NCBI GenBank assembly: GCA_029907165.1
Contig: JARYMK010000005.1
Coordinates: 1 to 43,307 of the forward strand
Source: Anaerolineae bacterium
Lineage (GTDB): Bacteria; Chloroflexota; Anaerolineae; DTLA01
Reading direction: 5' to 3'
Length of the DNA stretch: 43,307 bases
Shown here: positions 1 to 43,307 of the stretch, piece after piece
How the letters are laid out: each line of letters starts with the position of its first letter
Position numbering within the stretch: position 1 is the first letter of the stretch
The notes under the pieces: model-generated
Seen by the model: the letters and a program-made list of their open reading frames with translations, nothing else
Database searches by the model: none
What the model was told of the DNA's origin: nothing
Program-made: the position numbers and the translations under genes

Positions 1-294
1 ATGTGGTGCTACTACAACCTATTCATGCCGGTCGTACGCCAGACGTCCCGTCGGGTAAAGCGCACAACCACCGGCCTGCTCCAGATCGTGCGCACCCAAG
101 ACCGCGCCACCACGCCCCTTGACCGGTTGCTGACAGCCGCGCCACCCCTACCCCGCCCCACAGCTGAACAACTGGTGGCGCTCCGAGACAGCACCGACCC
201 GCTAGCCCTGAAGCGGCACATCCATCGCCACCTGGGTGAGTTAGCCCAGATGGCTGACCGAGACGAAAGGAGTGAGACCATTACCTTCCGGTAG
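1..294 (+). CDS. C-terminal part of an integrase/DDE-type transposase (5' end outside the window)
   Basis: Open from the window edge; WCYYNLFMPVVRQTSRRV resembles the C-terminal region of integrase-core transposases; followed by a tandem terminal repeat. Confidence 0.5.
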   Translation: MWCYYNLFMPVVRQTSRRVKRTTTGLLQIVRTQDRATTPLDRLLTAAPPLPRPTAEQLVALRDSTDPLALKRHIHRHLGELAQMADRDERSETITFR

Positions 295-340
295 CATTAT
301 CATTTGGCGGTCAATCTGCGCTCGGTAACATTATCATTTG
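289..340. repeat. Tandem copies of CGGTARCATTATCATTTG at a probable IS terminus (289-306 and 323-340)
   Basis: cggtagcattatcatttg and cggtaacattatcatttg differ at one base and start 34 bp apart, directly after the transposase stop. Confidence 0.6.
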
Positions 341-546
341 ACTTGACACGGAGCTCAGTTTATCTTGCAAATTTAAACTTACAGGTCATAGGTGCATCCT
401 GGAGCAGCACGGTCCTGCTGTTTTGTCCTCCATACGCACTCTTCGCATCCTTGGCCCTCTGCAGAGAGACCATAAACGGCGTCCCAGTAGTTTGACGTGC
501 CGACCTGCACGGGATAGAATGAGCGCCACCATCAGCGGAGGGCACA

Positions 547-3450
547 TTGGCAAGGCTGCGAGGCATCTCCCACATCTTGGCCGGCGTCGTGCTAGGGCTG
601 TTCGCGGGCCGCGTCTGGGCTGAAACCCAGACGGTCCCCATCGCCACACCGCGCTTGCTCGTCGTGGCGGGCCTGGCGTGCATCGCGGGTGCGGCGCTTG
701 GATGGGCACTGGCGCGGCTGCGCGTGCGCACGTGGCCGCTGCTCCTGCTGCTCGCCTATGCCGCCTGGCCCGTCGTCTCGCCCGGCATGGCAGCGTGGGT
801 GGCTGGATTCGCACTGGCCGCGCTCCTGCTGGCCAACCTGCCCCCGCGGCCCAAGTTGCCGATGGAATGGCCCGTCGCTGTCCTCGCCTTCGTTGTGTAC
901 GCGGCGACGCTGGCCCCAGGCATCCTTCCCGCCGACAGCGGCGAGTTCCAGTTCGTGGCCCATGTGCTCGGCATCGCCCACCCGCCGGGCTACCCGCTGT
1001 ACACCCTGCTGGGCAAACTGGCCACGCTCTTGCCCGTCAACTCCGTGGCGTGGCGGGTGAATCTCCTGTCGGCGGTGTTCGCCGCACTGACGCTGGCGCT
1101 GGTGGCGCGCACCGTGCGGCGGCTGACCGGCTCTGCGGTGGCCGGGCTATCTGCGGCGCTGGCCCTGGGCGGCATCACCACCTTCTGGGCACAGGCCACC
1201 ACGGCCAACATCCGCGCGCTGATGGCCCTGTTCACGGCCCTCATGCTCCTGCTGGCGCTGGAATACGGCGCGAAGCCATCCAAGAGGGGGCTCGTCGTGC
1301 TGGCAGTCGCGGCGGGCCTCGCCGTAGGGCACCACGGCTCGCTAGGGCTGCTGTTCATCCCCCTGGCGGCCTATCTGCTCGTCGCCGACCGGCAGTTGCT
1401 CAAGCGCCCCCGCTGGCTGCTGACGGCGGCTGGGGCGTTCGCGGCGTCGCTGCTGGTGCTCCTCTACTTGCCCATCCGAAGCCTCACGGGCGCGCCGTTT
1501 GATCCCACGCCCATTGACTCGGTGAGCCGTTTCATGGAGCACATCCTGGCGTCGGGATTCCGCGGCGACATGTTCTACTTCGCCCGCGCCGACCTGCTGC
1601 CCGGGCGCATCGGCGTGTGGCTGAACATCCTGCGCATGGAGTTCGGCGCACCGCTGGCCGTGGCGATGGCGCTGGCGGGCATCCTCTCCCTGGTCAAGCG
1701 CCCCAAAGTGGGGCTGCTCGTCGGGGGCGTGTTCCTGGTCAACGCCGCCACGGCCATCACCTACCGCGCGCCCCAGACGGTGGAGTATCTCATACCGTCC
1801 TACGTGGCGCTGGCGGTGTTCCTGGGCATCGGGCTGGCCGAGGCGATGGCGTGGGCATCGCGCCAGTCGGCGCTGCGGGCGCTCATCGCGGCGGCAGTGC
1901 TGATGCTGTGCGCCGCGCCTTGGGCCGCCAATGCGTCCAGTTTCCAGGTGCTGCACCGCGACAACTCCACCGAGCATACGGCGCGAACCCTGCTCGGCTT
2001 GGCGCCCGCCGGTGCAACTATCCTCGCCAACTGGCACTGGGCAACGCCGCTCTGGTATCTCCAGCACGCGGAAGGCGCGCGGCCTGACGTGCGCGTGGTG
2101 TACGTCTATCCCGAAGGCGCGACGCCGAATGAGGACGTCTGGATCCGGCGCATGGGCGAGGCGTTGGGGCAAGGCCCAGTCCTCATCACCAACTGGTTTG
2201 AGGCGTACAAGGCCACGCCCTACCGGTTCATCCGCACCGAGGGCGGCTGGCGGGTGCTGGATGCGCCCTTGCGCGACGTGCCGCCGGGCGTGGTCTCGGT
2301 GGATGCGGTCTTTGATGGCAAGATTCGCCTCCTCGCCTGCCGGATCAGCGAGAGCGAGACCGCGCCGGGCAAGGAACTGCGCCTGTGGGTGTACTGGCAA
2401 CCGGTCGCGCCGCTGGACCGCGACTACTCATTCTTCGTGCACCTGGTGGATGCCAGCGGGCAGGTACTGGGCCAGAGCGACCTGACGCGCGACGGGCGAT
2501 TGTACCAGGTGGGCGAGGTGGTGGCGGATGAGCACCGACTATCCATCCTGCCCACCGCCGTCCCCGGCGACTATCGCGTCATCGCGGGCACGTACATCAC
2601 CCTGCCCGACGGCTGGCGGCGGTTGCAGACGCCAGACGGCCGCGATGCTGTGCCCGTTGCCGACGTGCGGGTGCGCCCCGCCGCCGAGCGGCCCGTAACC
2701 CTGCACCCGATGGCGCAGCGGTTCGCGGGCGGGCTCACGCTGCTGGGCGCAGACTGGGACGCGGCGGGGTCGGGCGCGCTTTACCTGCACTGGCGCAACG
2801 ACGGTCTGCCCGCAGGCGACTACGCAATACAATTCCTACGTGCGGGCGAACTGGCCGCGCAGGGCATCGCCCACGTGCCGCCTGCCCCGGCCTACTTCAC
2901 GTCGGCCACGCTGGTACCCTATGGCGAGGGCTGGCTGTCCGTCCGCCTGCACGACGTTGCGGGCCGCGTGCTCCAGCCGCTGGGGCCTTGGGGCCGCGCC
3001 TGGGGCAACGAGGCCATGCTGCCCCACTTCTACGCCGGTGCGCGCTACGTCAACCTGGGCGGTGAGATGATCTTCGCGGGCACGGAGGGCCTGCCTACAG
3101 AGGCAAAGGCGGGCAGTTCTGTGCGCGTTGTGGCGAGATTCGTCGCCCTCAAGCCGCTGGTCAACGACTACGCCGTGTCGGTGGCCCTCTCCGCCGACGA
3201 CGGCTCGTGGGACGTGCAGCACGACACCACGCCCGCCCTGGGCGCCATCCCGACGCTCAAGTGGACGCGCGGCGTGGCCGTGGACGACCTGCACACGCTG
3301 GAGATTCCTGCGGGCGCGGCGGGCAAAGCCACGCTCTACCTCACCGTGTACGATGCCTTCACCCTGGACCCGCTGCCCATCCTGGACGCCGAACTGGCCC
3401 GCCTGGGCCAGGGCCAGCACCTGCGGCTGGGCGGGGTGGTGGTGCGATGA
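547..3450 (+). CDS. DUF2723-family membrane protein (putative glycosyltransferase) with C-terminal beta-sandwich modules; TTG start uncertain
   Basis: LPADSGEFQFVAHVLGIAHPPGYPLYTLLGKL motif, many hydrophobic segments, soluble C-terminal half. Confidence 0.8.
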   Translation: MARLRGISHILAGVVLGLFAGRVWAETQTVPIATPRLLVVAGLACIAGAALGWALARLRVRTWPLLLLLAYAAWPVVSPGMAAWVAGFALAALLLANLPPRPKLPMEWPVAVLAFVVYAATLAPGILPADSGEFQFVAHVLGIAHPPGYPLYTLLGKLATLLPVNSVAWRVNLLSAVFAALTLALVARTVRRLTGSAVAGLSAALALGGITTFWAQATTANIRALMALFTALMLLLALEYGAKPSKRGLVVLAVAAGLAVGHHGSLGLLFIPLAAYLLVADRQLLKRPRWLLTAAGAFAASLLVLLYLPIRSLTGAPFDPTPIDSVSRFMEHILASGFRGDMFYFARADLLPGRIGVWLNILRMEFGAPLAVAMALAGILSLVKRPKVGLLVGGVFLVNAATAITYRAPQTVEYLIPSYVALAVFLGIGLAEAMAWASRQSALRALIAAAVLMLCAAPWAANASSFQVLHRDNSTEHTARTLLGLAPAGATILANWHWATPLWYLQHAEGARPDVRVVYVYPEGATPNEDVWIRRMGEALGQGPVLITNWFEAYKATPYRFIRTEGGWRVLDAPLRDVPPGVVSVDAVFDGKIRLLACRISESETAPGKELRLWVYWQPVAPLDRDYSFFVHLVDASGQVLGQSDLTRDGRLYQVGEVVADEHRLSILPTAVPGDYRVIAGTYITLPDGWRRLQTPDGRDAVPVADVRVRPAAERPVTLHPMAQRFAGGLTLLGADWDAAGSGALYLHWRNDGLPAGDYAIQFLRAGELAAQGIAHVPPAPAYFTSATLVPYGEGWLSVRLHDVAGRVLQPLGPWGRAWGNEAMLPHFYAGARYVNLGGEMIFAGTEGLPTEAKAGSSVRVVARFVALKPLVNDYAVSVALSADDGSWDVQHDTTPALGAIPTLKWTRGVAVDDLHTLEIPAGAAGKATLYLTVYDAFTLDPLPILDAELARLGQGQHLRLGGVVVR

Positions 3451-3536
3451 TACCCCGCCCATCTTGCCCCTTCCCCCGCATTGTGATACACTTACCCACG
3501 ATACGGTGATCGGCCAATCCAAGTCGCAGGCGCACC

Positions 3537-4313
3537 ATGATACCCATCCGCAGGAATGGACTGCTCTACTACCAGTTTGAGACCCTCGCGGCGCAGCGTG
3601 GGGTGGACCACGCCGTGTTCACGCGGTTGGGCGGCTTCAGCAAGCCTCCCTTCGCGTCGCTGAACGTGGGCGCGACCGTGGGCGACGACCCCGCCGCCGT
3701 CCACGAGAATCGCTGCATCGTCTTCGGGGCGATGGGCCTCTCGCCCGACGAGGTGGTTACGTGCTACCAGGTGCATAGCGCCGCTGTTGCGCCCGTGGGC
3801 GTGCGGCACGGCGGCCAGGTCATCCCCGCCACCGATGGCCTCATGTCCGCCGAGCCGGTCGCCTTGTTCCTGCGCTTCGCCGACTGCGTCCCTATCATCC
3901 TGTACGACCCGGTGCGGCAGGTTGTGGCGCTGGTGCACGCGGGCTGGCGCGGGACTGCTGCGGGCATTGCCGGCGTGGGCGTGGCCCGCATGGCCGAACA
4001 GTACGGCTCGCGCCCGGGCGACATCCTCGCCTGCATTGGTCCCTCCATCGGCCCGTGCTGCTACCGCGTGGGCGAGGATTTCCACCAGACCATGACCGCG
4101 CAGTGGCCCGACGCAGCGGCCTACATCGCGCGGCGCAACGGCGCACTCCATGCGGACCTGTGGGAGATGAACCGGCAGCAACTGATGGACGCGGGCGTAG
4201 CCCATGTGGAAGTCGCGCGCATTTGCACCGCCTGCCACAACGACGAGTTCTTCTCCCATCGCGGCGATGGTGGCCGCACCGGGCGGTTCGCGGCGCTTGT
4301 GCGCCTGCGGTAG
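3537..4313 (+). CDS. pgeF: Laccase-domain / peptidoglycan editing factor PgeF (YfiH) family protein
   Basis: CYQVHSA, FADCVPI, HAGWRGTAAGI and IGPSIGPCCYRVG motifs. Confidence 0.9.
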   Translation: MIPIRRNGLLYYQFETLAAQRGVDHAVFTRLGGFSKPPFASLNVGATVGDDPAAVHENRCIVFGAMGLSPDEVVTCYQVHSAAVAPVGVRHGGQVIPATDGLMSAEPVALFLRFADCVPIILYDPVRQVVALVHAGWRGTAAGIAGVGVARMAEQYGSRPGDILACIGPSIGPCCYRVGEDFHQTMTAQWPDAAAYIARRNGALHADLWEMNRQQLMDAGVAHVEVARICTACHNDEFFSHRGDGGRTGRFAALVRLR

Positions 4314-4332
4314 GATCCGGGGAGGGCGGCAC

Positions 4333-5079
4333 ATGGCGACAGTGCCGAGCCTGGAATGCAACCTGCGTGCGGTCAACGAGCGCATTGCCGAGGCGGCCGC
4401 GCGGGCGGGACGTAGCCCCGATGCCATCACCCTGGTCGCCGTCACTAAGACTGTGCCTGCGGAAATCGTTGCCGCCGCCTGGGAACTGGGCGTGCGCCAC
4501 TTCGGCGAGAACCGTGTGGAAGAGGCCGAGGCCAAAATCCCCGCGGCCGATGCCCTCATCGCTGTGCCGGGCCAGTGCCCCACCTGGCACATGGTCGGCC
4601 ACATCCAGAGCCGCAAGGCCAGGGAGGTTGTGAGCCTGTTTGATTTCGTCCACTCGGTGGACAGCGTGAAACTCGTCGCCGAACTGGACAAGCGGGCGGC
4701 CGCCGTCGGTCGGACAGTCCCTTGCCTACTGGAAATCAACACGAGCGGCGAGGCGAGCAAATATGGCGTCGCGGGCGACATCGGCCCATCCGACCCGGCC
4801 CAGGCTGGAGCGGTCCTGGCCGTAGCCCAGGCGCTGGCGGGGGCAACGCATCTGCAGGCCCTCGGCCTGATGACGCTGGGGCCTCTGGCTGCGCCCGAAG
4901 CGCATGTGAGGCGCTGCTTCCAGACCCTGCGGCGCTGGCAGGAATTCCTGGCGGGGCGCGTGCCCCAGGCCCAGTGGCGGCACCTCTCCATGGGCATGTC
5001 CGACGACTTTGAGATCGCCGTGGAGGAGGGCGCGACCATCGTTCGCATCGGCAGGGCCATATTCCAGGGGAGTTCGTAG
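4333..5079 (+). CDS. YggS family pyridoxal-phosphate homeostasis protein
   Basis: VAVTKTVPAEIV, HFGENRVEEA, WHMVGHIQSRK and LSMGMSDDFEIAVEEGATIVRIG. Confidence 0.9.
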   Translation: MATVPSLECNLRAVNERIAEAAARAGRSPDAITLVAVTKTVPAEIVAAAWELGVRHFGENRVEEAEAKIPAADALIAVPGQCPTWHMVGHIQSRKAREVVSLFDFVHSVDSVKLVAELDKRAAAVGRTVPCLLEINTSGEASKYGVAGDIGPSDPAQAGAVLAVAQALAGATHLQALGLMTLGPLAAPEAHVRRCFQTLRRWQEFLAGRVPQAQWRHLSMGMSDDFEIAVEEGATIVRIGRAIFQGSS

Positions 5080-5098
5080 CCCAACGAGGGGGAGTCCT

Positions 5099-5359
5099 AT
5101 GATCATCGTGCACAACTTTATCCGCCTTCTGTTTGACCTGTTGAGCCTGGCCATCTTGCTCCGCGTCATCCTGTCCTGGTTCAGAGTCAACCCGTTCCAC
5201 CCCATTGTCGCGTTCCTGGACCAGATTACCGAGCCGATACTCGGCCCACTTCGCCGTGTCATCCCGCCCATCGGCATGATTGACGTTACGCCTATCGTCG
5301 CGCTGGTATTGCTCCAGGTAGTGGAGATGATTCTGCTCTCGCTTATTCCGCGTGCGTAG
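5099..5359 (+). CDS. YggT family membrane protein
   Basis: LLRVILSWFRVNPFHPIVAFLDQITEPILGPLRRVIPPIG. Confidence 0.85.
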   Translation: MIIVHNFIRLLFDLLSLAILLRVILSWFRVNPFHPIVAFLDQITEPILGPLRRVIPPIGMIDVTPIVALVLLQVVEMILLSLIPRA

Positions 5360-5368
5360 AGGTGAGTG

Positions 5369-5662
5369 ATGAACGTTCTGTTCATCACCGAACGGGAAGG
5401 GGCCATCTCGTTCCTGGTGCGGGTTACGCCGCGCGCCAAGCGGGACGAGATCGTCGGGGCCGTAGAGGGGGCGCTGAAGGTGAAACTGGCGGCCCCGCCG
5501 GTGGAAGGCGCGGCAAACGAGGCGCTGACCAAGTTCCTCGCCGATCGTCTGGGCGTGCACGCCGCACAGGTGGAGATTCTGTCCGGCCGCACGGCCAAGA
5601 TGAAAAGGGTTCGGGTTATAGGCATCTCCGCCAGCGAAGCGCACCGGCGACTGCAAGCCTGA
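5369..5662 (+). CDS. DUF167 (YggU) family protein
   Basis: VRVTPRAKRDEIVG, APPVEGAANEAL and LSGRTAKMKRVRV; conserved neighbourhood with yggS and yggT. Confidence 0.85.
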   Translation: MNVLFITEREGAISFLVRVTPRAKRDEIVGAVEGALKVKLAAPPVEGAANEALTKFLADRLGVHAAQVEILSGRTAKMKRVRVIGISASEAHRRLQA

Positions 5663-5763
5663 CGCTCCGCGCGGGAACCCATCGGGCGCGTGCGGCGTCT
5701 ACCAGACGGATACCTGCAAGCGATAGTCGGCTCGCAGGCAAGAAAGCGTCAGGAGGTAACAAC

Positions 5764-6486
5764 ATGACGGCCCGAACCGTATGGATGCTTGTCGCGGTGC
5801 TGCTGCTCGTCAGCGCGTGCGCCCCGGCGGGGGGCGGGCCTGCTGCGACGCCGTCCGCGCCATCGGGAGGCAGCACCCCGGCCACTCCGCCCGCGCAAGG
5901 AGGAACTATGCCAAGTCTTGAGATTCCCAGCCCGCTGCCGCGGAAGATGACGGAGCCGCTGGAACAGGCCGTGCACGACCTGGCGACGCGGCTCGGCATC
6001 TCCGCCGATGAGATTGAACTGTTGAGCATTACCACCGAGGAGATGCCTATCGGCGATCTCTGCCCCGGCGCGCCCGCCAAGGGCACCACCCAGCCCGGCG
6101 GCTTGGTGCTGGGCAAGGAGATCGTCCTGCGGGTTGGCGGCGAGACCTACACGTACCGCGTGGCCGGCAAGCGGGTGGCGCTGTGCCAGGGGCCTGGTTC
6201 CGTCGAGGTTACGGCCCCGCCTGCCGCGTCGCTGCCCGATGGCAGCGAGGCTGCGCTGGAGGCGGCGCTGTCGGACCTGGCGGCGCGCCTGAAGGTTGAC
6301 CCGAGCGCCATCCAGGTGGTAGGCGTGGAGAAGCGCATGTGGAGCGACGCCAGCCTGGGGTGCCCGCAGCCCGGCATGATGTACGCCCAGGTCATTACGC
6401 CGGGGTTCCTGATCCGGCTCAGCGTTGAGGGCAAGGCGTATACGTACCACACCAGTCTGACCCACGCGGTGCTGTGCGAGCCGTAG
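5764..6486 (+). CDS. Secreted lipoprotein with two tandem copies of an uncharacterised domain
   Basis: Lipobox LLLVSAC; two repeats of [L]E.A..DLA.RL..... to ...G..YTY....... LC..P. Confidence 0.75.
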   Translation: MTARTVWMLVAVLLLVSACAPAGGGPAATPSAPSGGSTPATPPAQGGTMPSLEIPSPLPRKMTEPLEQAVHDLATRLGISADEIELLSITTEEMPIGDLCPGAPAKGTTQPGGLVLGKEIVLRVGGETYTYRVAGKRVALCQGPGSVEVTAPPAASLPDGSEAALEAALSDLAARLKVDPSAIQVVGVEKRMWSDASLGCPQPGMMYAQVITPGFLIRLSVEGKAYTYHTSLTHAVLCEP

Positions 6487-6517
6487 CGCCAGCCCACCCG
6501 AAAGACGACACCAAAGA

Positions 6518-6549
6518 AGAGAGCCAGCCGTTTCTGCGGCTGGCTCTCT
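6518..6549. terminator. Bidirectional hairpin terminator between convergent genes
   Basis: agagccagccg-tttctg-cggctggctct with A-rich 5' and T-containing 3' flanks. Confidence 0.8.
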
Positions 6550-6582
6550 TGTGTTGCGGTGAAGTCGCGAGCGCCTAGCGCG

Positions 6583-14927: not shown

Positions 14928-15824
14928 ATGCGACGCAGATCTAGACTTCTACTCATTTTGGGAATCCTGCTGGCCGTCGTCGCAACGCTCGTTACGTACA
15001 CCATGCTCCAGAAGCCACAGCAGCCGGTGGAGCAGCCACCGGTAGTTACCCGGAAAGTGGCTGTTGCCACTCAAGACATCCCCTATGGTACGCTGGTGGA
15101 TCCGCTGACGGTGGAATTGCGCGACTGGCCTGTGGACACGGCCCCCGCGGACGCCATCGGCAATACGGCCGACCTGGCGGGCAAGTACGCCAGGACGGCT
15201 ATCTTCGCTGGCCAGGTCATCCGGGCCGATATGCTGGCGACGCGCAGCAACTTGGCCAGCGGAGAGGGCCCCGCTTCCATCCTCGTTCCGGCCGGCATGG
15301 TCGCGTACCCGTTCCCAATTGACGAGTTCAGCGGCGTATCCTACGCGCTCAAGACCGGCGACCGCGTGGATGTGCTCATCACGTTCAAATTCATATCTGT
15401 GGACCGGGAAACCCAGTCACCCCTGCCCCTGGAAAGGGGGTTGGAAGGGGAGATCAAGGGCATTCAGATTCCCCGCCTGGTCTCGCAGCTGACGCTTCAA
15501 AACATAGAAGTCCTGCGCGTGGGCTCGTGGTACGTTCCGCCAGTCCAGCCCACCACGCAGCAAGGCGGCCAGCAGCAACAGGCGCAGGCGACCCCGCCTC
15601 CGCCCGCCGTGGTTACGCTCCTCATGCCGCAACAGGACGCCCTCGTGCTCCAGTTCGCCAAGGAAGCCAAGGCCACGATTGAACTGGCCCTGCGCAACCC
15701 CAATGACCAGGAGATCGTAACCACCCAGTCGGTTACGCTGGATTACATGCTGGCGCGGTTCAACATCACGGTGCCCATCCTGAGGGACGAGTCGCTGGAG
15801 ACCCTCCGCCCCGCGACCAGGTAG
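14928..15824 (+). CDS. cpaB: Flp pilus assembly protein CpaB (SAF domain)
   Basis: VATQDIPYGTLVDPLTVELRDWP; FAGQVIRADMLATR; AYPFPIDEFSGVSYALKTGDRVDVLIT. Confidence 0.88.
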   Translation: MRRRSRLLLILGILLAVVATLVTYTMLQKPQQPVEQPPVVTRKVAVATQDIPYGTLVDPLTVELRDWPVDTAPADAIGNTADLAGKYARTAIFAGQVIRADMLATRSNLASGEGPASILVPAGMVAYPFPIDEFSGVSYALKTGDRVDVLITFKFISVDRETQSPLPLERGLEGEIKGIQIPRLVSQLTLQNIEVLRVGSWYVPPVQPTTQQGGQQQQAQATPPPPAVVTLLMPQQDALVLQFAKEAKATIELALRNPNDQEIVTTQSVTLDYMLARFNITVPILRDESLETLRPATR

Positions 15825-21556: not shown

Positions 21557-22798
21557 ATGGTACAGATGACGTTGTTCGCCCGCCCGTTCACCGTCAGTGA
21601 ACTCACGCTCCACATCAAAGGGCTTTTTGACGAGGACGAGACCCTCGCCGACGTGTGGGTGGAAGGCGAGGTGTCCAACCTGTCCCGCCCGTCGTCGGGC
21701 CACATCTACTTCAGCCTCACGGACGCGGGCGCGCGCCTCGGGTGCGTGCTGTGGCGCTCCGCCGCTGCGCGAATTCGCACCCTGCCCCAGAATGGCGACC
21801 GCGTCCTGGCCCACGGCAGGGTGAGCGTGTATGAAGCCCAGGGGACCTACCAACTCTACGTGGACGAGATTCAGCCCGCGGGCCTGGGCGAATACTACAT
21901 CCAACTGGAGCGGCTGAAACAACGCCTGCGCGACGAAGGGCTGTTCGCCGAGGAGCGCAAGCGTCCCCTGCCCGACTTCCCGCGGCACATCGGCATCGTA
22001 ACCTCGCCCGACGGGGCCGCGCTGCGCGACATCCTGCACGTGCTGCGGCGGCGGTTCCCGTGCGTCGCCGCCACCCTGGCCCCCACCCAGGTGCAGGGCG
22101 CCGACGCCCCTGCGCAGATTGTCGCCGCGCTGGAAGCACTCAACCGCCACACCGACTGCGACGTGCTCATCGTGGCACGAGGCGGCGGCTCGATAGAAGA
22201 ACTGGCCGCCTTCAACGACGAGCAGGTCGCCAGGGCCATCGCCCGGTCCCGCATTCCGGTCGTTACCGGTATCGGCCACGAGACCGATTTCACCATCGCC
22301 GATTTCGTGGCCGACCGCCGCGCGCCCACGCCCACTGCCGCCGCCGAGTTCGTTACGCCCGACCGCGCCGAACTCCTCGCCGCGCTGGAGGACATGACCG
22401 AACGCCTGAGCCGCACCGCGTCGCGCCGCGTCCAGGACATGGCGGCCAACCTCGCCTACGTCCACAAGGCCCTGCGCCGCGCCTCGCCCGAAGCGCAGAT
22501 TCGGAGCCACCGTCAGCGCGTGGACGAACTGACCCACCGCATGACCCTGGCGGCGCGGCAGACGCTATCCCACAGCAAGGGCGCGCTCAAGGCCGCCGCC
22601 GACCGCCTGCACAGCGCCTCGCCCCAGGCGACGCTGGCCCGCGGCTACGCCATCGTTTCCCTGCGCCCGTCGGGCAGACTGGTAACCAGCACCCGCCACG
22701 TCCGCCCAGGCGACGCCATCCGCGTGCAGGTCAGCGACGGAGCCTTCCACGGGCGAGTTGCCGAAGACCGAGAAGATGAGGAGAGCAAACCATCATGA
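21557..22798 (+). CDS. xseA: Exodeoxyribonuclease VII large subunit
   Basis: VSNLSRPSSGHIYFSLTDAGARLGCVLWRS; VTSPDGAALRDI; ARGGGSIEELAAFND; GIGHETDFTIADFVADRRAPTPTAAAE. Confidence 0.97.
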   Translation: MVQMTLFARPFTVSELTLHIKGLFDEDETLADVWVEGEVSNLSRPSSGHIYFSLTDAGARLGCVLWRSAAARIRTLPQNGDRVLAHGRVSVYEAQGTYQLYVDEIQPAGLGEYYIQLERLKQRLRDEGLFAEERKRPLPDFPRHIGIVTSPDGAALRDILHVLRRRFPCVAATLAPTQVQGADAPAQIVAALEALNRHTDCDVLIVARGGGSIEELAAFNDEQVARAIARSRIPVVTGIGHETDFTIADFVADRRAPTPTAAAEFVTPDRAELLAALEDMTERLSRTASRRVQDMAANLAYVHKALRRASPEAQIRSHRQRVDELTHRMTLAARQTLSHSKGALKAAADRLHSASPQATLARGYAIVSLRPSGRLVTSTRHVRPGDAIRVQVSDGAFHGRVAEDREDEESKPS

Positions 22799-23043
22799 GT
22801 CAAAACGCAGACATTGCGGCTCTGTCCTTTGAGGAAGCCTTCCGCGAACTGGAGGCGCTGGTAGAGCAGATGGAAGCGGGCAATCTGCCGCTGGAGGAGA
22901 CCATCCGCCTGTTTGAGCGGGGCAGCCTGCTCGCCCGCCACTGCCAGGACCTGCTGGACAAAGCCGAACTGAAACTGAAACCGCTGACCGAATCGCCCGA
23001 CGGCGAAGCGACGTTTGCCCCCTTTGACGAGGGCAGCCGCTAG
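22795..23043 (+). CDS. xseB: Exodeoxyribonuclease VII small subunit
   Basis: LSFEEAFRELEALVEQMEAGNLPLEETIRLFERGSLLARHCQDLLDKAELKL; ATGA overlap with xseA. Confidence 0.95.
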   Translation: MSQNADIAALSFEEAFRELEALVEQMEAGNLPLEETIRLFERGSLLARHCQDLLDKAELKLKPLTESPDGEATFAPFDEGSR

Positions 23044-31841: not shown

Positions 31842-32615
31842 TCATCCACGCTGCCCGTTCGCGGGTTTGGCTTCGCTCGCGTCTGTGCCGTTCCCGCGAC
31901 GTGGCTCCAGCGCCGCGATGAACACCTCGCCGAACAGCGTTTCCTGGTACGCCTCCACCAGTTGCCGCTTGATCATCTCCAGGACGGCGAGGAACGTTAC
32001 GATGATCTCCATGCGGTTGCGCGCCTGGCGGATGAGATGGCGGAAGGACACCCGCCCGCGCCGCGCCAGCCGCTCCTGGATGTACGCAATCTTCTCGTCC
32101 ACCGTGATGAGGAGCGGCGCGACCACATCGTTGACCGGCGGCGCGGGCGGGGCCACGGCCAGCGCCTCGCGGACGGCCTGCACGAGGGCGTCCAGCGTAA
32201 CGCCCTCCAGGTCCAGCGTCTTGGGCAAATCCACAGGCGGCGCGACCCGCACGAACGCGCGGTTCCCCTGCTCCTCCAGCGCGCGCAGGAACTCGGCGGC
32301 CCGCTTGAACTGGCGGTACAGCAGCAACTGCCGCACCAGGTCGTCGCCCATGTCTTCCTCCTCTTCCTCTGTCGCGATCACCTGCGGCAACAACACCGTG
32401 GACTTGATGTAAATCAGCTTGGCCGCCACCACCAGGAAATCGGCGAGGTGGTCGGGATTGATGGTCTCGGTGTGGGCGATGTAGTCCAGGTACTGCTGCG
32501 TAACCTGGGCTAGCGACACCTTCGTGATGTCCAGTTGTTGCTCTTCAATCAGGTGGAGCAAGAGGTCCAGCGGCCCCTCAAACACAGGCAGTTGGACCTG
32601 GTAGCCGTCCGACAT
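31842..32615 (-). CDS. scpA: Segregation and condensation protein A
   Basis: YQVQLPVFEGPLDLLLHLIEEQQLDITKVSLAQVTQQYLDYI; ADFLVVAAKLIYIKSTVLLP. Confidence 0.95.
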   Translation of the reverse strand: MSDGYQVQLPVFEGPLDLLLHLIEEQQLDITKVSLAQVTQQYLDYIAHTETINPDHLADFLVVAAKLIYIKSTVLLPQVIATEEEEEDMGDDLVRQLLLYRQFKRAAEFLRALEEQGNRAFVRVAPPVDLPKTLDLEGVTLDALVQAVREALAVAPPAPPVNDVVAPLLITVDEKIAYIQERLARRGRVSFRHLIRQARNRMEIIVTFLAVLEMIKRQLVEAYQETLFGEVFIAALEPRRGNGTDASEAKPANGQRG

Positions 32616-33427: not shown

Positions 33428-33442
33428 AAGAGGGAGAAGCGT

Positions 33443-35203: not shown

Positions 35204-35260
35204 GGACGGGAAGCACACGCCGCGCGTCGGCACACTACGGTTACACACACGGAGGCAATC

Positions 35261-35500
35261 ATGTGCCTGGGCATCCCTGGTAAGGTTACGAGCGTGCAGG
35301 ACAACCCCATGGGCCTCAAGATGGGGACGGTGGAGTTCGGGGGCGTGGCCCGCGAGGTGTGCCTGGCCTACACCCCCGAAGCCCGACCCGGCGACTGGGT
35401 CATCGTCCACGCAGGGTTTGCCATCAGCCTGCTGGACGAAGAAGAGGCGCAGTTGACCCTGCAAGCCCTTGCCGAACTGGCCGCCAGCGAGGAGGAGTAG
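35261..35500 (+). CDS. hypC: HypC/HybG/HupF family hydrogenase maturation chaperone
   Basis: MCLGIPGKV...VEFGGVAREVCLAYTPEARPGDWVIVHAGFAISLLDEEEA. Confidence 0.92.
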   Translation: MCLGIPGKVTSVQDNPMGLKMGTVEFGGVAREVCLAYTPEARPGDWVIVHAGFAISLLDEEEAQLTLQALAELAASEEE

Positions 35501-35535
35501 CCTCGCCCGCCAGCCGCTGGCTGCCGACCGCTCGC

Positions 35536-36564
35536 CTACGGCACGATCACCGTCCGCGTGTCGCCCTTGAAGTGCTCCAGGTTGTCCATCACCTGATTGA
35601 TGGCGTCCGCGTCCAGCGGGACGGTGCGCGTAACCACGTGGGACAGGTCCAGGATTCCCCGCCGCGCGAACTCTATCAGCGTCGGCAGTTCCGACATCAG
35701 GTGATCGTCCGAGCCGATGATCTCCGCCTCGCGCCCGATGAGGTCAAAGTACGAGTCCACCTGAATTGGCTTGCGCGTGATGCCCACCAGCACGGCCCGC
35801 CCGAAGATCGCCAGCGACTTCACCGCCTGCTCCATCGTCTGCGGCAGGCCGATGACCTCCAGGGCCACGTCCACGCCGCGCCCGCCGGTCAGCCGCCGAA
35901 TCTCGGCCACGGGATCGCCCTTGCTGGCATCCACGGGAATCGCGCCGAACCGCTCGGCGAGGCGCAACTTGTCGGCGTTGATGTCCACGGCGTACACGTC
36001 CAGCGCACCGAAGGCCCGCGCGATCTGGATGGCCGACATGCCCAGCCCACCCGCGCCGAACACCGCAACCGTCTCCCCTGGCTGGAGCCGCGACTTGCGC
36101 AGCGCGTGGAACGACGTGGCCGACGAGCACATGAGCACAGCCCCGTGCTCAAACGGGACGTCCTCGGGCAGGCGCACCACGCTCCTCGCGGGGACGGCGA
36201 TGTACTCGGCGTATCCGCCATCGCGGTGCTTGCCGATCATCTTGCCCTGCACGCAGAACTGCTCATTCCCGCGGCTGCAGAAGGCGCACTCGCCGCAGGT
36301 TACCATGTAGTGGATGCAGACGCGGTCGCCCGCTTTGAAATTGGAGACCCCAGCGCCGACCTGCTCCACAACGCCCGCGACCTCGTGCCCAGGCGTTACG
36401 GGCAGTTGGGTTACGGGCGATGTGCCGGCGCGGTAGTGCACGTCCGAATGGCAGATGCCCGCGGCCTTGACCCGCACGAGCACGTCCCTGTCGCCGATGG
36501 CGGGAATAGGGATTTCCTGCAACTGAAGGGGCTTGCCGGTTTCAACCAAACGCACTGCTTTCAT
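35536..36564 (-). CDS. Zinc-dependent alcohol dehydrogenase (MDR family)
   Basis: AAGICHSDVHYRAG, PVTPGHEVAGVVEQVG, GECAFCSRGNEQFC and FGAGGLGMSAIQIA; start set at ATG 36564 with upstream RBS. Confidence 0.93.
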   Translation of the reverse strand: MKAVRLVETGKPLQLQEIPIPAIGDRDVLVRVKAAGICHSDVHYRAGTSPVTQLPVTPGHEVAGVVEQVGAGVSNFKAGDRVCIHYMVTCGECAFCSRGNEQFCVQGKMIGKHRDGGYAEYIAVPARSVVRLPEDVPFEHGAVLMCSSATSFHALRKSRLQPGETVAVFGAGGLGMSAIQIARAFGALDVYAVDINADKLRLAERFGAIPVDASKGDPVAEIRRLTGGRGVDVALEVIGLPQTMEQAVKSLAIFGRAVLVGITRKPIQVDSYFDLIGREAEIIGSDDHLMSELPTLIEFARRGILDLSHVVTRTVPLDADAINQVMDNLEHFKGDTRTVIVP

Positions 36565-36668
36565 GACGTCGTCCTCCCTGAAATAGCAACTATGTGCAGT
36601 ATGGCACAAAGACGAGCGCGTGTCAAAGCGACGCGGCTGGGCTTGATTGCTGGGCGCTTCTCGCAGAA

Positions 36669-36696
36669 TTGCGCCTCGCCCGGCCTGTGCTATACT
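36669..36696 (+). promoter_or_regulatory. Probable promoter of the WYL regulator gene
   Basis: TTGCGC, 16 bp, TATACT. Confidence 0.5.
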
Positions 36697-36725
36697 TTGC
36701 AGCAGTACGCTGCCAGAGGCATCTA

Positions 36726-36795
36726 TCACCGCAGAGAACACAGAGGTCGCAGAGATTTCCAGATATCTCTGCGGTCTCCGCGCGCTCTGCGGTGA
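36726..36795. repeat. CACCGCAGAG-family palindromic repeat, copy C (5' leader of WYL gene)
   Basis: 31-bp arms, 25/31 matching, at 36726-36756 and 36765-36795. Confidence 0.85.
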
Positions 36796-36827
36796 ATGCG
36801 GTTTCGTATGCGGTCGCAAGGAGGCAC

Positions 36828-37826
36828 ATGGATCGCTCGCTCCGTCTGTTGTACATCCAGCGGTTGTTCTACCAGAACCCCAGGGGCTACAAGGCGTCGG
36901 AACTGGCGCGATTGTGCGGGGTGGACACCCGCACCATCAACCGCGACCTGCAAGACCTACAGGACGAGCCGTTTCGGCTGCCCCTGGTCGCGGAGCCGGA
37001 CTGGCGCTGGCGGCTGATGAAAGGCCACCGTTTCACGCTGCCGCCCATTCACTTCTCTCTGCAGGAGGCGGCGGCCCTGTACCTGGCGGCCCGAATGCTA
37101 GATACCGTCAGCGACGAGCCGAACCCGTTCGTCGTGCGGGCGCTGGTGGCGCTGGCCGACGCGCTCCCCGCCGAAGTGGGCCGCGTTATCCACGAGATGG
37201 TCGCCGACCGCCTGGTCGAGGAACGGTCTCCGTTCGCCCGCGCCTTTGAGGTCGTAACTTTGGGCTGGGCGACGGGGCGCAAGGTGCGGATGAGGTATCG
37301 GTCGCTGCGGAGCGAGGATACCTACGAGACGGTGCTGGAACCGTACCTGATCGTTCCCTCGTGGCCGGGCCACGCCATCTACGTCATCGGCTACGCTTCC
37401 CACGCGGGCGAGGTGCGCACCTTCAAGATGGAGCGAATCTCGGACGCCGAACTGCTGGAGGAGACCTTCACCGTGCAGCCGGGATTTGATGGGGCGTCGC
37501 TCCTCCGGAGCGCCTGGGGCATTATGTGGGGTGAGGACACCCGCGAGGTCGTCCTGCGCTTCACTCCGGCCGTGGCGCGGCGCGTGAAAGAGGGCCGCTG
37601 GCATGAGACCCAGCAGGTGGAAGACTGCGGCGACGGCGGGTGCATTGTGCGGTTCCGCGTGGCCCATCCGGGCGAGATGAAGTCATGGATACTGGGCTGG
37701 GGGCCGGACTGCGAGGTCCTAGTGCCGGAGTCGTTGCGGGCGTCGGTGGCCGAGGCGCTGTGGAGCGCGGCGGCGATGTACGGGGCACAGGAAACGTCGG
37801 CGACAGGGAATGCCCCGGCACCCTGA
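36828..37826 (+). CDS. WYL domain-containing transcriptional regulator
   Basis: DRSLRLLYIQRLFYQNPRGYKASELARLCGVDTRTINRDLQDL HTH; VRMRYRSLRSEDTYETVLEPYLIVPSWPGHAIYVIGYASH. Confidence 0.88.
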   Translation: MDRSLRLLYIQRLFYQNPRGYKASELARLCGVDTRTINRDLQDLQDEPFRLPLVAEPDWRWRLMKGHRFTLPPIHFSLQEAAALYLAARMLDTVSDEPNPFVVRALVALADALPAEVGRVIHEMVADRLVEERSPFARAFEVVTLGWATGRKVRMRYRSLRSEDTYETVLEPYLIVPSWPGHAIYVIGYASHAGEVRTFKMERISDAELLEETFTVQPGFDGASLLRSAWGIMWGEDTREVVLRFTPAVARRVKEGRWHETQQVEDCGDGGCIVRFRVAHPGEMKSWILGWGPDCEVLVPESLRASVAEALWSAAAMYGAQETSATGNAPAP

Positions 37827-37865
37827 TTGCGGAGAGTGAGGCGAGGTTGGGAAACGGAGGACAGC

Positions 37866-38522
37866 ATGGGTGAGAAGATTCGGGTGATTCTGGCGGACGA
37901 TCACGCCCTGGTGCGCCAGGGCATTCGCCAGTTCCTGGAGGAGGCCGACGACATCGCGGTAGTGGCCGAGGCAGGCGATGGTGCCGAGGCCGTCCAACTG
38001 GTGGAGCAGCACCGCCCGGACATCGCCATTCTGGACGTGCAGATGCCAAAGATGACCGGCATTGAGGCCACCCGCCAGATCAAGGAGAAGTTCCCCCATA
38101 CCCGGGTCCTCGTGCTCACGGCCTACGATGAGGACCCCTACGTCCTCGCGCTGCTCCAGGCCGGAGCGGATGGCTACATCCTAAAATCGGCTGACGCCGA
38201 TGCCCTGCTGGAGGCTGTGCGGAAGGTTCACCGCGGAGAGCACGCCCTCAGCCCTGAGGTAACCGAGAAAGTCCTGCGGCAGTTACAGAAGGGTGGCCCG
38301 GCTCAGGCGGCAGGGCAGGTGGAACCTCTGACAGCACGGGAGATTGAAGTGCTGCGGCTTGCCGCCCAGGGGCTGACGAACCGCGCCATCGGGCGCGCGC
38401 TGGGCATTAGCGACCGCACGGTGCAGGGCCACCTGGCGAATATCTACGGCAAACTGAACGTGGCCAGCCGCACCGAGGCCGTTACGGAAGCGCTGAAGCG
38501 CGGGTGGATCGTGTTGGAGTAG
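37866..38522 (+). CDS. NarL/LuxR-family response regulator
   Basis: IRVILADDHALVRQGIRQFLEE; DIAILDVQMPKMTG; LTAREIEVLRLAAQGLTNRAIGRALGISDRTVQGHLANIYGKL. Confidence 0.96.
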   Translation: MGEKIRVILADDHALVRQGIRQFLEEADDIAVVAEAGDGAEAVQLVEQHRPDIAILDVQMPKMTGIEATRQIKEKFPHTRVLVLTAYDEDPYVLALLQAGADGYILKSADADALLEAVRKVHRGEHALSPEVTEKVLRQLQKGGPAQAAGQVEPLTAREIEVLRLAAQGLTNRAIGRALGISDRTVQGHLANIYGKLNVASRTEAVTEALKRGWIVLE

Positions 38523-38524
38523 CC

Positions 38525-39952
38525 GTGAACGAGACGACGACCCCACCGCGGAGCAGATGGTACCGCCGCCTGGAAGTGCAGTTGTGGCTCTGGGCCATCC
38601 TGCCGCTGACGCTGGCGCTGGTTGCCTTCACCCTGACCGGCGTGTACAGCCATCAGCACGCCATGCACGAATTCGTGGCCGAGCGGGACACAGCCATGGC
38701 AAGCCTGTATGCCCGCCAGATTGAGGACGGCCTGGCGCACGGGGCCGTGTACCTTGACGGCACGGGCATATCCCTCATCGTCCGCGACGCGCGAATCGGC
38801 AAGCGCGGCATCATCTACGTGGTGGACAATGCGGGACGTGCGGTCTTTCACCCAGACCCCGCGCTGGCTGGCGAAGATCTCTCTTACAGTCCGGCGGTCA
38901 AGCGCGCCCTAGAAGCGCTGACGGGCAGCGTCGCGGGCCTCTTTCCCGACGGGACGGAGACCATTGCCTCGTTTGCGACCGTGGGCGAGACCCGCTGGCG
39001 TGTCATCGTTGAGGAGCCGGTGGATGATGTGATCGTGCCCATTCTGCGCTTTTCCAGCCTGGTGCCCATGTTGGTCGGCGCTGCTGTGCTCCTCTCGGTT
39101 GTCGTCCTGTACTTCTCGCTGCGCACCATCGTTCGCCCGCTCCAGCGGTTGGTGAGCGCGTCCACGAAAATCACAGGCGGCGAGTTCTCCGGCCTGCAGA
39201 TTGACGTGGGCGGCGTGGAGGAGATCCGCGACCTGCAGCGCGCGCTCCGCGACATGATAGAGCGCATCCGCCGGTATCAGGAGTCCATGCGCGACTACAT
39301 TGAGGGAATCACGCGCGGCCAGGAGACGGAGCGGGCGCGCCTGTCGCGGGAACTCCACGACCAGACGGTGCAGGACCTGATCGCCATGACTCAGCGGCTG
39401 CAATTGGCGTCGCGCGCCCTGGAGCGTGGCGACGTGCCCACGGCGCTGGACACACTCCGGGCCACACGCGCCCTGGCCCAGAACACGCTGAACGAACTTC
39501 GCAGGCTCATTCGCGCCTTGCGGCCCGTCTATCTGGAAGACCTGGGGTTTCTTCCCGCGCTGGAGATGCTAGCCCGCGAGATTCAGACGCCCCCCGTGGA
39601 ACTCCGAGTTTCCGGGCAACCCCGACGGCTCGGCCCCGATGTGGAACTCGCCGCCTTCCGCGTGGCCCAGGAAGCCCTGACGAATGCCGTGCAACATGCC
39701 CGCGCCAGCCAAATCACTCTGGCGGTATCCTTCGGCCAGCAAGAACTCATGCTGTCTGTGGACGATGATGGCATGGGCTTCGCGCTGCCGGACGGCCCCG
39801 ACTCGCTCACCCGTGAGGGCCACTTCGGCCTGGTGGGCATGCGCGAGCGGGTGCTGCTGCTGGGCGGGAGCCTGGACATCCGGTCAGAGCCGGGACGGGG
39901 AACTCGCATCACCGCCCGCATTCCGATAGAGAGCAAGGTTGGTAACAACTGA
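38525..39952 (+). CDS. NarX-type sensor histidine kinase with cache-like sensor and HAMP
   Basis: GQETERARLSRELHDQTVQDLIAM; AFRVAQEALTNAVQHARA; VDDDGMGF; HFGLVGMRERV. Confidence 0.95.
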   Translation: MNETTTPPRSRWYRRLEVQLWLWAILPLTLALVAFTLTGVYSHQHAMHEFVAERDTAMASLYARQIEDGLAHGAVYLDGTGISLIVRDARIGKRGIIYVVDNAGRAVFHPDPALAGEDLSYSPAVKRALEALTGSVAGLFPDGTETIASFATVGETRWRVIVEEPVDDVIVPILRFSSLVPMLVGAAVLLSVVVLYFSLRTIVRPLQRLVSASTKITGGEFSGLQIDVGGVEEIRDLQRALRDMIERIRRYQESMRDYIEGITRGQETERARLSRELHDQTVQDLIAMTQRLQLASRALERGDVPTALDTLRATRALAQNTLNELRRLIRALRPVYLEDLGFLPALEMLAREIQTPPVELRVSGQPRRLGPDVELAAFRVAQEALTNAVQHARASQITLAVSFGQQELMLSVDDDGMGFALPDGPDSLTREGHFGLVGMRERVLLLGGSLDIRSEPGRGTRITARIPIESKVGNN

Positions 39953-39979
39953 ACGCGCGCCGAGCGTCCCAGCGGCAAA

Positions 39980-40012
39980 AAGCATCCGGAGCCAGTGCGG
40001 CCCCGGATGCTT
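39980..40012. terminator. Hairpin between convergent kinase and PepSY-like genes
   Basis: aagcatccgg ... ccggatgctt preceded by A run. Confidence 0.7.
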
Positions 40013-40047
40013 GCGCTATGTTCGGCCCGTGCGGATGCGCTGCGCGC

Positions 40048-40881
40048 CTACGACTCTTCGCCGACCATCTGCACGAAGTCCCCGTGCCAGTTGTGGTACC
40101 AGACCTGCCCGGTCGCGCCGTGAACGCTCAACATACCGCTGACAGTCCCGTCTTTCAAGGTGTGGATGGTGTAGTAGCCGTAGAAGGGGTCCGCATGGGA
40201 TTCTACCGTCGTGCCCGGCCGGTACGTGTCCAGCCACCGCTGCGCGATGTTCAGGGCTTCCTCGGGCGTTACGGTCATCGTCGTGGTGGCGGCGCCTCCG
40301 GCAGAGCAGCAGGAGGGCACGCCGGCGGGATGCATCCCATACTTGGCGTTCCACATCATGTTCGGCCCGTATTCCGGCCCTACCACGCCCGAGTACTTGT
40401 CCACGAGCAATTCCATTGCGCCGATCCCCGTATCAGTCTCCTTGACGATGGCGTAGAAGTTCTGGGTGAACTCCATCACCTCGTCCACCGCCAAGTTGCT
40501 GGAGCCGAGCGTGGCGATGTACTTCTCCACCGCCTCTTTGGCCTGGGCGATGGTGATCGGCTCGCCGGCCGGGTTAGCGGGCGTAGCGAAGCCGCCCAGG
40601 CATGGCATGCCCGAGACACCGTAGGCATTGCCGTAGTAGCGGCCCATCATGCCCATCGGGCCCCATCTGACCGCTTGCTGGCCCTGGGGAGCGGGCGTTC
40701 CGACAGCCGCCCCGTTTCCGCCGAAGAAGCGGCCCATCATCCCCCATCGGCCCAGGAAGCCCTGCGGCCCTTGAGCCTGCGCAACGTTGCGGCTGCCGAT
40801 GTACCACATCGCGCCCATCAGAGCCACCACCAGCATGGCTGTGATTCCGATAGTCGCCAAAGCAATCCAACGAACTCTCAT
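40048..40881 (-). CDS. Membrane-anchored PepSY-like protein with Met/Gly/Arg-rich and CC-containing linkers
   Basis: N-terminal TM; RWGMMGRFF and RWGPMGMMGRYY repeats; ITIAQAKEAVEKYIA and VTPEEALNIAQRWLDTY PepSY-like halves. Confidence 0.6.
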   Translation of the reverse strand: MRVRWIALATIGITAMLVVALMGAMWYIGSRNVAQAQGPQGFLGRWGMMGRFFGGNGAAVGTPAPQGQQAVRWGPMGMMGRYYGNAYGVSGMPCLGGFATPANPAGEPITIAQAKEAVEKYIATLGSSNLAVDEVMEFTQNFYAIVKETDTGIGAMELLVDKYSGVVGPEYGPNMMWNAKYGMHPAGVPSCCSAGGAATTTMTVTPEEALNIAQRWLDTYRPGTTVESHADPFYGYYTIHTLKDGTVSGMLSVHGATGQVWYHNWHGDFVQMVGEES

Positions 40882-40917
40882 TTGCTTTCCTCCAAAATTG
40901 TGAATGTAACTACAGGC

Positions 40918-41679
40918 TCATTGTACCCGTTCCGTGGCGTTGGAACAGGGTTCTATGGCGGGTTGGGATATAGGCAAAACGGCGGGGGCGAGCGCGTGCT
41001 CTGGAGCGGGAACGGTGTCGCCGACGATTTGCCCGTCCAGGATGTGGACCACGCGCCGCGCGCAGGCCGCCGCCTGCGGATCGTGGGTTACCATGACCAC
41101 CGTTTGCCCGGCGCCGTTCAGGTCGCGCAGGAGTTCTAGGACCTGCATCCCTGTGGCGCGGTCCAGATTGCCGGTCGGCTCGTCGGCCAGCAGGATCGGC
41201 GCACGGTTCACCAGCGCCCTGGCAACCGCCACGCGCCCCTGTTCGCCGCCGGACAGTTGCGAGGGGAGACGATGCTCCTTGCCCTTCAGCCCCACCTGCG
41301 CCAGAATCTCATAGGCACGGGCGATCTTCTCGGTGCGCGGAGTTGGCGCGATCGCGAGCGCCAGCAGCACGTTCTCCAGCGCCGTAAGGTAGGGCAACAA
41401 CTGGAGTTGCTGGAACACGAACCCCACATACTCGTAGCGGAAGTCCGCCTGGCGTTCGGGCGAGAGGCTGTACACATCTATCCCATCCACGATCACGCGG
41501 CCTGCGGTGGGCGAGTTCATGCCGCCGATGATGGTCAGCAGGGTACTCTTGCCCGAACCGGATGGCCCCATCAGGGCGACAAACTCCCCCTCGGCGATGG
41601 TCAAGTTGACATTGCGAAGGGCGACGACCGGCGCGCCGCCCGAATTGTACACTTTGCTCACGTTGTGCAGTTCAATCAT
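40918..41679 (-). CDS. ABC transporter ATP-binding protein (LolD/MacB type)
   Basis: MGPSGSGKSTLL; LSGGEQGRVAVARALVNRAPILLADEPTGNLD. Confidence 0.95.
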   Translation of the reverse strand: MIELHNVSKVYNSGGAPVVALRNVNLTIAEGEFVALMGPSGSGKSTLLTIIGGMNSPTAGRVIVDGIDVYSLSPERQADFRYEYVGFVFQQLQLLPYLTALENVLLALAIAPTPRTEKIARAYEILAQVGLKGKEHRLPSQLSGGEQGRVAVARALVNRAPILLADEPTGNLDRATGMQVLELLRDLNGAGQTVVMVTHDPQAAACARRVVHILDGQIVGDTVPAPEHALAPAVLPISQPAIEPCSNATERVQ

Positions 41680-41714
41680 CGGGCATCTCTCCAACAGCGT
41701 ATTCTGTCATGCCG

Positions 41715-42824
41715 CTACGACGAACGCAGGGCGACGGTGGGGTCCACGCGCGCCGCCTGCGCCGCAGGGTACAGGCTCGCCAGCACGCCTACCACCAGCG
41801 CGCAGCCGACAGCAGCCGCTGCCAGCACGGGGTCCCACGGGACCCGCGCAGTTACGTTTGCCACGCGCGGGGCCAGCGTAACGGCGGCTCCCATACCCGC
41901 GAGGTAGCCCAGTGCCCCGCCCGCCGCGCTCACCAGCGCCGCCTCGGTCAGGATAATCCGCCCCACATGGCGCTGGCGGAATCCTAGTGCGCGGAACAGG
42001 CCGATCTCCTGCCGCCGCTCGGCCACCGCCCCCAGCATAGTGGTGAGCACGACCAGTGCCCCGATGGCAATCACCACGGCCGACACGGCCACCGCAAAGC
42101 GGCCCAACTGCCCGACCGTCTCCATGCGCAGGGTAACGGCCTGGCGCAGCGCCGTTACGCGGGCTTGGGGCAGCACGTGGCTAATCTGCTCTACCATCTC
42201 TTCCACCGGGCAGGCGGTGCACAGTGCTGCCACTTCCACCAGGCTCACCGCATCGGGCTTGTCCAGCGCCAGTTGCGCGGCAGACAGGTCCACGAATAGG
42301 ATGTCGTCATCCTGCGACCCGTTCTCGGCGAGGACGCCCACGACGCGGAACCTCCGTCCGTTCACCTCAACCTCATCGCCGGGCTGGATGGCCAGACTTT
42401 GAGCCAGTCTCGCTCCTGCCAGGGCGTCAGCGGCCTCCGAGGGCTCCATGCCCTGCTCCACGCGCCACCATCGCTTCAGCCGCAACTCGTCCGCGAATCG
42501 CACGCCGGCCAGCAGCACGGGACGGCCCATGAGCGGCACCGCGCCCAGCAACTTGGGCGCGACCACACTGATGTTGGCCGCGTTCTTGATGGTGCCGATA
42601 CGCTCCACGTCCGGCATGCTGAGCGTCGCCACATCGTACGCGGCGGAGCCCACGGTGATGCCTCCGTAGGACAGGGCCAGGTCATTGGCCTTCGGCACAA
42701 CGAGGATGTTGGCCCCGTACTCGTCCATCTTGACGGCGACGTCGGCCTGCATCGCCTCGGTGATCGCCATCAGCGCCACCGCGGTGGCGACGCCGATGGC
42801 GAGACCCACCACAAGCAAGACCAT
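41715..42824 (-). CDS. ABC transporter permease (FtsX/MacB type), 5' end truncated at the IS junction
   Basis: Frame extends upstream of ATG 42824 as HHWLKNLWRRKGR before an in-frame TAG at 42864-42866, next to IS sequence. Confidence 0.8.
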   Translation of the reverse strand: MVLLVVGLAIGVATAVALMAITEAMQADVAVKMDEYGANILVVPKANDLALSYGGITVGSAAYDVATLSMPDVERIGTIKNAANISVVAPKLLGAVPLMGRPVLLAGVRFADELRLKRWWRVEQGMEPSEAADALAGARLAQSLAIQPGDEVEVNGRRFRVVGVLAENGSQDDDILFVDLSAAQLALDKPDAVSLVEVAALCTACPVEEMVEQISHVLPQARVTALRQAVTLRMETVGQLGRFAVAVSAVVIAIGALVVLTTMLGAVAERRQEIGLFRALGFRQRHVGRIILTEAALVSAAGGALGYLAGMGAAVTLAPRVANVTARVPWDPVLAAAAVGCALVVGVLASLYPAAQAARVDPTVALRSS

Positions 42825-42875
42825 GCGACCTTTACGCCGCCAGAGGTTCTTTAACCAATGGTGCTAGTTTGACAG

Positions 42876-42938
42876 AGTCATGGGGCTTCTCCAAACTGTG
42901 GTTGAGAGACCATACAGAAAGGAGAATGCCCCATGACT
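42876..42938. promoter_or_regulatory. Hairpin sequestering the RBS and start codon of the IS transposase
   Basis: agtcatggggcttctcc (42876-42892) pairs with ggagaatgccccatgact (42921-42938), one bulge; ATG at 42933. Confidence 0.6.
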
Positions 42939-43307
42939 ACAGAAGATTTTATCATAACTTTGTTCTGCCGGGTAGATGACGTGATGTCGGATGTGCCGAA
43001 ACACAGCCAAGCGCACCTGTACCCAAGTGAAGTGGTGACCTTGGGGCTGCTGTTCGCTCTCAAGGGCGTGGGCAACAGAGCCTTCTACCGATGGATCAAG
43101 CGCGACTGGCTTCATTTGTTTCCCAGCCTTCCGGACAGAACACGGCTCTTTCGGCTCTTCAAGAAGTACTGGTATTGGACGAACCTGTTCTTGGCACAAC
43201 CGACAATCCTTGGCGTCGCTGATTCCTATGGCATTGAACTGCTGCACCCTGCGCGAGAGGGACGCAGCAAGAAGCAGATCGCCAAAAAAGGCAAGTCAAA
43301 CTACCGT
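42933..43307 (+). CDS. DDE transposase, N-terminal part (runs off window; absent from ORF track)
   Basis: Read directly: MTTEDFIITLFCRVDDVMSDVPKHSQAHLYPSEVVTLGLLFALKGVGNRAFYRWI...GVADSYGIELLHPAREGRSKKQIAKKGKSNYR. Confidence 0.85.
   Translation, partial: MTTEDFIITLFCRVDDVMSDVPKHSQAHLYPSEVVTLGLLFALKGVGNRAFYRWIKRDWLHLFPSLPDRTRLFRLFKKYWYWTNLFLAQPTILGVADSYGIELLHPAREGRSKKQIAKKGKSNYR

Follow-up and report, generated by a model that had tools for sequence, protein, structure and literature searches.

The window analysed here, a stretch of 43,307 bases, is one contig of a 3.21-Mb draft genome (G000; 303 contigs, 98% complete) from the Anaerolineae and carries, among its genes, a CpaB/RcpC-like Flp pilus gene, xseB and scpA (Table 1). 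By direct count, AGCT occurs exactly four times in the window. A sequence-only reading had reported this near-absence with all four coordinates correct and had put the expectation at about 100 or more; the expectation computed here was 124 +/- 9 with 100 dinucleotide shuffles and 105 under a maximal-order Markov model, for an observed/expected ratio (O/E) of 0.04 (z -16), far from 1. The most depleted tetranucleotide was TCGA (3 observed against 154 expected, O/E 0.02; about 157 expected by shuffle), and the most depleted pentamer was GTGAC/GTCAC (GTSAC; O/E 0.15; 9 against 107 by shuffle), so that the earlier reading was right about AGCT but understated the pattern, having missed the deeper TCGA deficit and that of GTSAC. 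It had also placed an IS remnant at the left edge, where the frame at 1-294 matches no recognised IS or transposase family. The palindromic hexamers GGCGCC, GGGCCC, AGCGCT and ACGCGT were also low in the window (O/E 0.16-0.32) and are possibly further targets of restriction-modification (R-M).

Table 1. Residual sites in the window and genes considered in the analysis
Feature	Location	Strand	Remarks
Residual AGCT site	window, 162..165	.	direct count
Residual AGCT site	window, 352..355	.	direct count
Residual AGCT site	window, 15487..15490	.	within CpaB/RcpC-like Flp pilus gene (14928-15824, +)
Residual AGCT site	window, 32416..32419	.	within scpA (31842-32615, -)
Residual TCGA site	window, 6203..6206	.	
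Residual TCGA site	window, 22190..22193	.	
Residual TCGA site	window, 37216..37219	.	
xseB	window, 22795..23043	+	PF02609; GAA/AAA used before CTG
N6/N4 methyltransferases + PADLOC Type II REases	L081 and L085		
N6/N4 methyltransferase + Tsp45I REase	L082		PF06300, E=4e-104
N6/N4 methyltransferase + BsaWI-like REase	L083		
m4C-type methyltransferase + 395-aa protein	L084, G000:C299:7103-9362		candidate AGCT cassette
N6/N4 methyltransferase + TdeIII-like REase	L086		
TaqI-type methyltransferase	L110:9092-10432 (G000:C166)	-	matches PDB 1g38, E=2e-59
HhH-GPD glycosylase	L224:2547-3374 (G401:C80)	-	short locus, also with a C5 methyltransferase
m4C methyltransferase + Cys4 protein	L270:432-2277 (G412:C5)		distant second module

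The deficits extend well beyond the window. Across 562 kb of G000 there were 71 AGCT sites where 1278 are expected and 56 TCGA sites where 1898 are, and the O/E of GTGAC was 0.16. Relatives were sampled mostly at 20 kb per genome. Deficits of AGCT, TCGA and GTSAC were present in both other sampled members of the genus; in most other sampled Anaerolineae the O/E of TCGA was about 1, and that of AGCT ranged from 0 to 1. The AGCT baseline of the class is already low, with a median by genome of 0.63 among non-carriers of the L084 cassette. A separate deficit, the near-absence of GGCC (O/E 0.00-0.01), was seen in the Anaerolineae G055, G120 and G018 (L162, L163, L169).

The R-M genes held responsible lie outside the window, on contigs C299, C166 and C292 of G000, a genome in which N6/N4 methyltransferases occur in several R-M pairs (L081-L086). 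The Tsp45I system fits the GTSAC deficit, and the TCGA deficit fits a TaqI-type system that is broken in this genome, where the methyltransferase has an in-frame TGA; in the congener G401 the open frame is intact throughout. M.AluI belongs to the C5 class, and no C5 methyltransferase (PF00145) was found in the genome at 98% completeness, which argues against the strict AluI-type system proposed earlier; among relatives, C5 methyltransferases were patchy, and they were rejected as the cause of the AGCT deficit. An HhH-GPD glycosylase gene that shares a short locus with a C5 methyltransferase in G401 recalls the association of mismatch glycosylases with m5C R-M systems. Also rejected was L081, the own gene of which contains zero AGCT and relatives of which, with REases 79% and 65% identical, have AGCT O/E values of 0.90 and 1.01. 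The methyltransferase cluster L256-L258, common to AGCT-poor genomes that are non-carriers of the cassette, was set aside as well, its neighbour in two of three cases being of EcoO109I type, not AGCT.

For AGCT, the candidate is the L084 cassette. Its methyltransferase is of the beta-class N6_N4 type (PF01555, E=1e-41) with the TSPPYW motif in 11 of 11 homologues. Homologues occur in G412, among other genomes, which is of another family and has AGCT as its main deficit. Of the 396 Anaerolineae genomes covered by a class-wide search, 11, from eight families, carry the full-length cassette, with the M and R genes adjacent in every carrier; no further nuclease was recognised next to it at the loci inspected. 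By family, the median AGCT O/E was 0.13 in carriers and 0.88 in non-carriers (P=1.4e-5; P=4.6e-5 without the own family), and by genome it was 0.17 in nine carriers, own genus excluded, and 0.63 in 80 non-carriers (P=2e-4). Among the top-ranked of 608 words compared between carriers and non-carriers, AGCT had by far the largest effect; ATGAA had a lower P but a tiny effect. Two carriers were only mildly depleted (G521, 0.59; G486, 0.47). The statistical association, together with the self-exemption described below, points to AGCT as the word of this cassette, and its second protein would be the restricting effector.

We consider it probable, at roughly 0.7, that AGCT, TCGA and GTSAC were removed by Type II restriction selection, AGCT through the C299 cassette, TCGA through the TaqI-type system and GTSAC through Tsp45I. 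Resident Type II systems would attack unprotected sites upon failure of methylation or loss of the system, and selection against the attacked sites would clear the three words from this Chloroflexota genome. The AGCT system would most likely be a vertically inherited two-gene cassette, in which the m4C-type methyltransferase (TSPPYW) protects AGCT and the co-inherited 395-aa protein, with its MutY/EndoIII-like Cys4 end, is the probable effector. Long-term restriction avoidance, as put forward in the sequence-only reading, is supported by a deficit that spans genome and genus, does not differ between codon phases and is visible in proteins, with two co-avoided words for which R-M genes can be identified.

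The AGCT cassette and the TaqI gene are each spared the depletion of their own word but not that of the other's. The two own-genus cassettes keep AGCT (5 observed against 7.9 expected in G000 and 6 against 7.7 in G401, four positions apparently being shared) and are purged of TCGA (2 against 8.2 and 0 against 7.3), while TCGA is near normal in most cassettes outside the genus. Together, the cassettes of strong avoiders hold 38 AGCT sites where the genomic rate gives 5.3 (P=3e-20). The TaqI gene mirrors this: its three copies keep TCGA (6 against 6.8, 4 against 5.8 and 2 against 6.5) and have no AGCT. When 546 1-kb windows were scanned without bias, the cassette ranked first for AGCT and the TaqI gene first for TCGA. 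Because the word of TaqI is known, its gene serves as a positive control for the AGCT reading of the cassette, and because TCGA was purged from the same cassette genes, recency alone is insufficient to explain their retention of AGCT. A possible interpretation is that a site becomes costly chiefly upon loss of the cassette, the sites of the cassette vanishing with it. Self-exemption offers a genome-only route for matching orphan R-M genes to words, with TaqI/TCGA as the control of known specificity.

The strongest competitor, although improbable in our judgement, is that another or lost AGCT system, such as L085 or an ancient lost enzyme, caused the deficit and that the C299 cassette is a bystander. 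L085 also keeps AGCT (3 against 5.8; TCGA 0 against 6.1) and is an alternative AGCT candidate in the own genome. AGCT-poor non-carriers exist (L003, 0.02; L022, 0.08; L002, 0.12), the congener G400 has an AGCT O/E of 0.05 with no cassette detected, and G537 is still AGCT-poor with only a remnant; R-M systems are documented to leave traces after their loss (PMC4687349), and the poverty of G537 and G400 is as such traces would produce. The sequence-only reading had held that a comparable deficit in relatives without any AGCT R-M system would speak against restriction, and in part this was found, some Anaerolineae being AGCT-poor without the cassette; these could be due to systems since lost or to different AGCT enzymes. 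Against a bystander stand the family-level association, the exemption of the cassette for AGCT but not for TCGA with the TaqI gene as its mirror control, and synteny, the cassette occupying a shared position in G401 and G000, where 3.7 kb are 87.7% identical, while L085 was found in G000 only. Lone methyltransferases 51-60% identical to the cassette enzyme occur on viral contigs (L340-L346) with near-normal AGCT (0.77-1.13), which would be expected if phages protect themselves in this way.

Codon choice tracks the avoidance, as had been noted earlier from xseB, the examples from which were located at 22843 and 22963 (the gene assignment is confirmed by PF02609). Before CTG, Glu is written GAA 334 times and GAG 8 times, whereas elsewhere GAG makes up 77%. 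Under synonymous codon shuffling, the coding sequences of the window contain 2 AGCT where 102 are expected, and 468 kb of own-genome coding sequence contain 34 where 1330 are expected (O/E 0.026), with a TCGA O/E of 0.018; both deficits were alike across all three codon phases. The earlier suggestion that a methylated C in AGCT deaminates to T, so that the loss is mutational and involves no restriction selection, is unlikely. It predicts C-to-T changes, and Ser AGT is about 4-fold enriched before T; however, the C-to-T excess is confined to Ser AGC to AGT, the sole one-step synonymous escape of that codon. The escapes of NAG-Leu (NAG-TTR : NAA-CTN, 342 : 965) are near the ratio of roughly 0.40 predicted by codon preference alone, and the escape codons overall require only removal of AGCT and ordinary codon preference. 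In addition, the genome lacks a C5 methyltransferase, TCGA is at least as depleted although the TaqI-type enzyme makes m6A, and the AGCT sites of the cassette persist though presumably equally methylated. A clade-specific codon or dinucleotide bias is very improbable, since the deficit, albeit set against mildly low AGCT throughout the Anaerolineae, outlasts the Markov and codon-shuffle controls in every phase and the palindromes TGCA, ACGT and GCGC are near normal in the codon-shuffle analysis.

Restriction selection would also reach the proteins. Glu/Lys/Gln-Leu dipeptides occur at 0.76 of expectation in the own genome, 0.80 in other AGCT-avoiding carriers and 0.95 in non-avoiders; Phe/Ile-Glu/Asp dipeptides, for which the TCGA frame is costly, occur at 0.78, 1.01 and 1.10, respectively, and control dipeptides are near 1. 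This suggests that restriction pressure is able to reshape protein sequence.

The 395-aa partner matched no Pfam, NCBIfam or PADLOC family above cut-off, and no relatives were found in plasmids, phages or viral contigs. A C-X7-C-X2-C-X5-C pattern preceded by a DDGLMYIGT-like stretch is invariant in 11 of 11 homologues. The Cys4 end matches the Fe-S terminus of MutY (hhalign probability 84-89%; PDB profile E=9e-4), and DSNAGRVLWR weakly matches DGNVKRVLAR around the catalytic Asp of MutY (hhalign E=0.04), the Asp being aligned by MAFFT. By sequence, the protein looks more akin to a DNA-repair enzyme than to a known DNA-cutting enzyme. It has no PF00730 (HhH-GPD) match, the AF2 model of the full protein was of low confidence (pLDDT 44.5), and modelling of the C-terminal part, with MutY rows added to its alignment, raised the pLDDT to 65.5, with no HhH-GPD found by Foldseek. 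The distant module in G412, with VDGHVGKVFCRTG and a canonical Cys4, suggests a wider family of m4C methyltransferase and Cys4 protein pairs. A role of the partner as a restriction glycosylase is speculative, the HhH-GPD fold being unsupported by structure prediction. The fuller proposal is doubtful: a MutY/EndoIII-related Fe-S glycosylase outside PabI/HALFPIPE would restrict unmethylated AGCT by base excision, and the exemption of R-M genes from their own word would reflect site selection mainly on cassette loss. If true, it may define a second class of restriction glycosylase.

The C299 cassette is an undescribed, uncharacterised candidate R-M cassette, and its value lies in tying an extreme sequence bias to specific genes. 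It would share the AGCT word with AluI/M.AluI, but C5 genes are absent from the genome and the candidate belongs to the m4C type. The TaqI (TCGA) and Tsp45I (GTSAC) systems agree with the present case in that their genes are recognised in the own genus and their cognate words are depleted; it departs from TaqI in the in-frame stop of the own-genome methyltransferase. The open-access literature searched yielded nothing relevant on AGCT/TCGA avoidance or on HhH-GPD or Fe-S restriction enzymes. In orthodox Type II systems, with separate R and M genes, a short palindromic site is strongly avoided (Rusinov et al. 2015, PMC4687349), and this avoidance is linked to long residence, with traces persisting after loss of the system. 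The same arrangement is seen here, but three words are avoided together, two of them to under 6%, dipeptides are measurably depleted and the cassette itself is exempt. The persistent archaeal m4C methyltransferases HG11, HG16 and HG19 modify AGCT (PMC10609329) and resemble the candidate in being of m4C type; they are orphans, whereas the methyltransferase described here has its second protein beside it in every carrier. The restriction glycosylases of the PabI family (HALFPIPE; PMC4357717, PMC10273834), to which the 395-aa protein has no match, provide a functional precedent and a possible analogy, combining a base-excising effector and a methyltransferase with strong avoidance of a 4-bp site (in Helicobacter, GTAC); their fold is a different one, and the 395-aa protein has an EndoIII/MutY-like Fe-S end.
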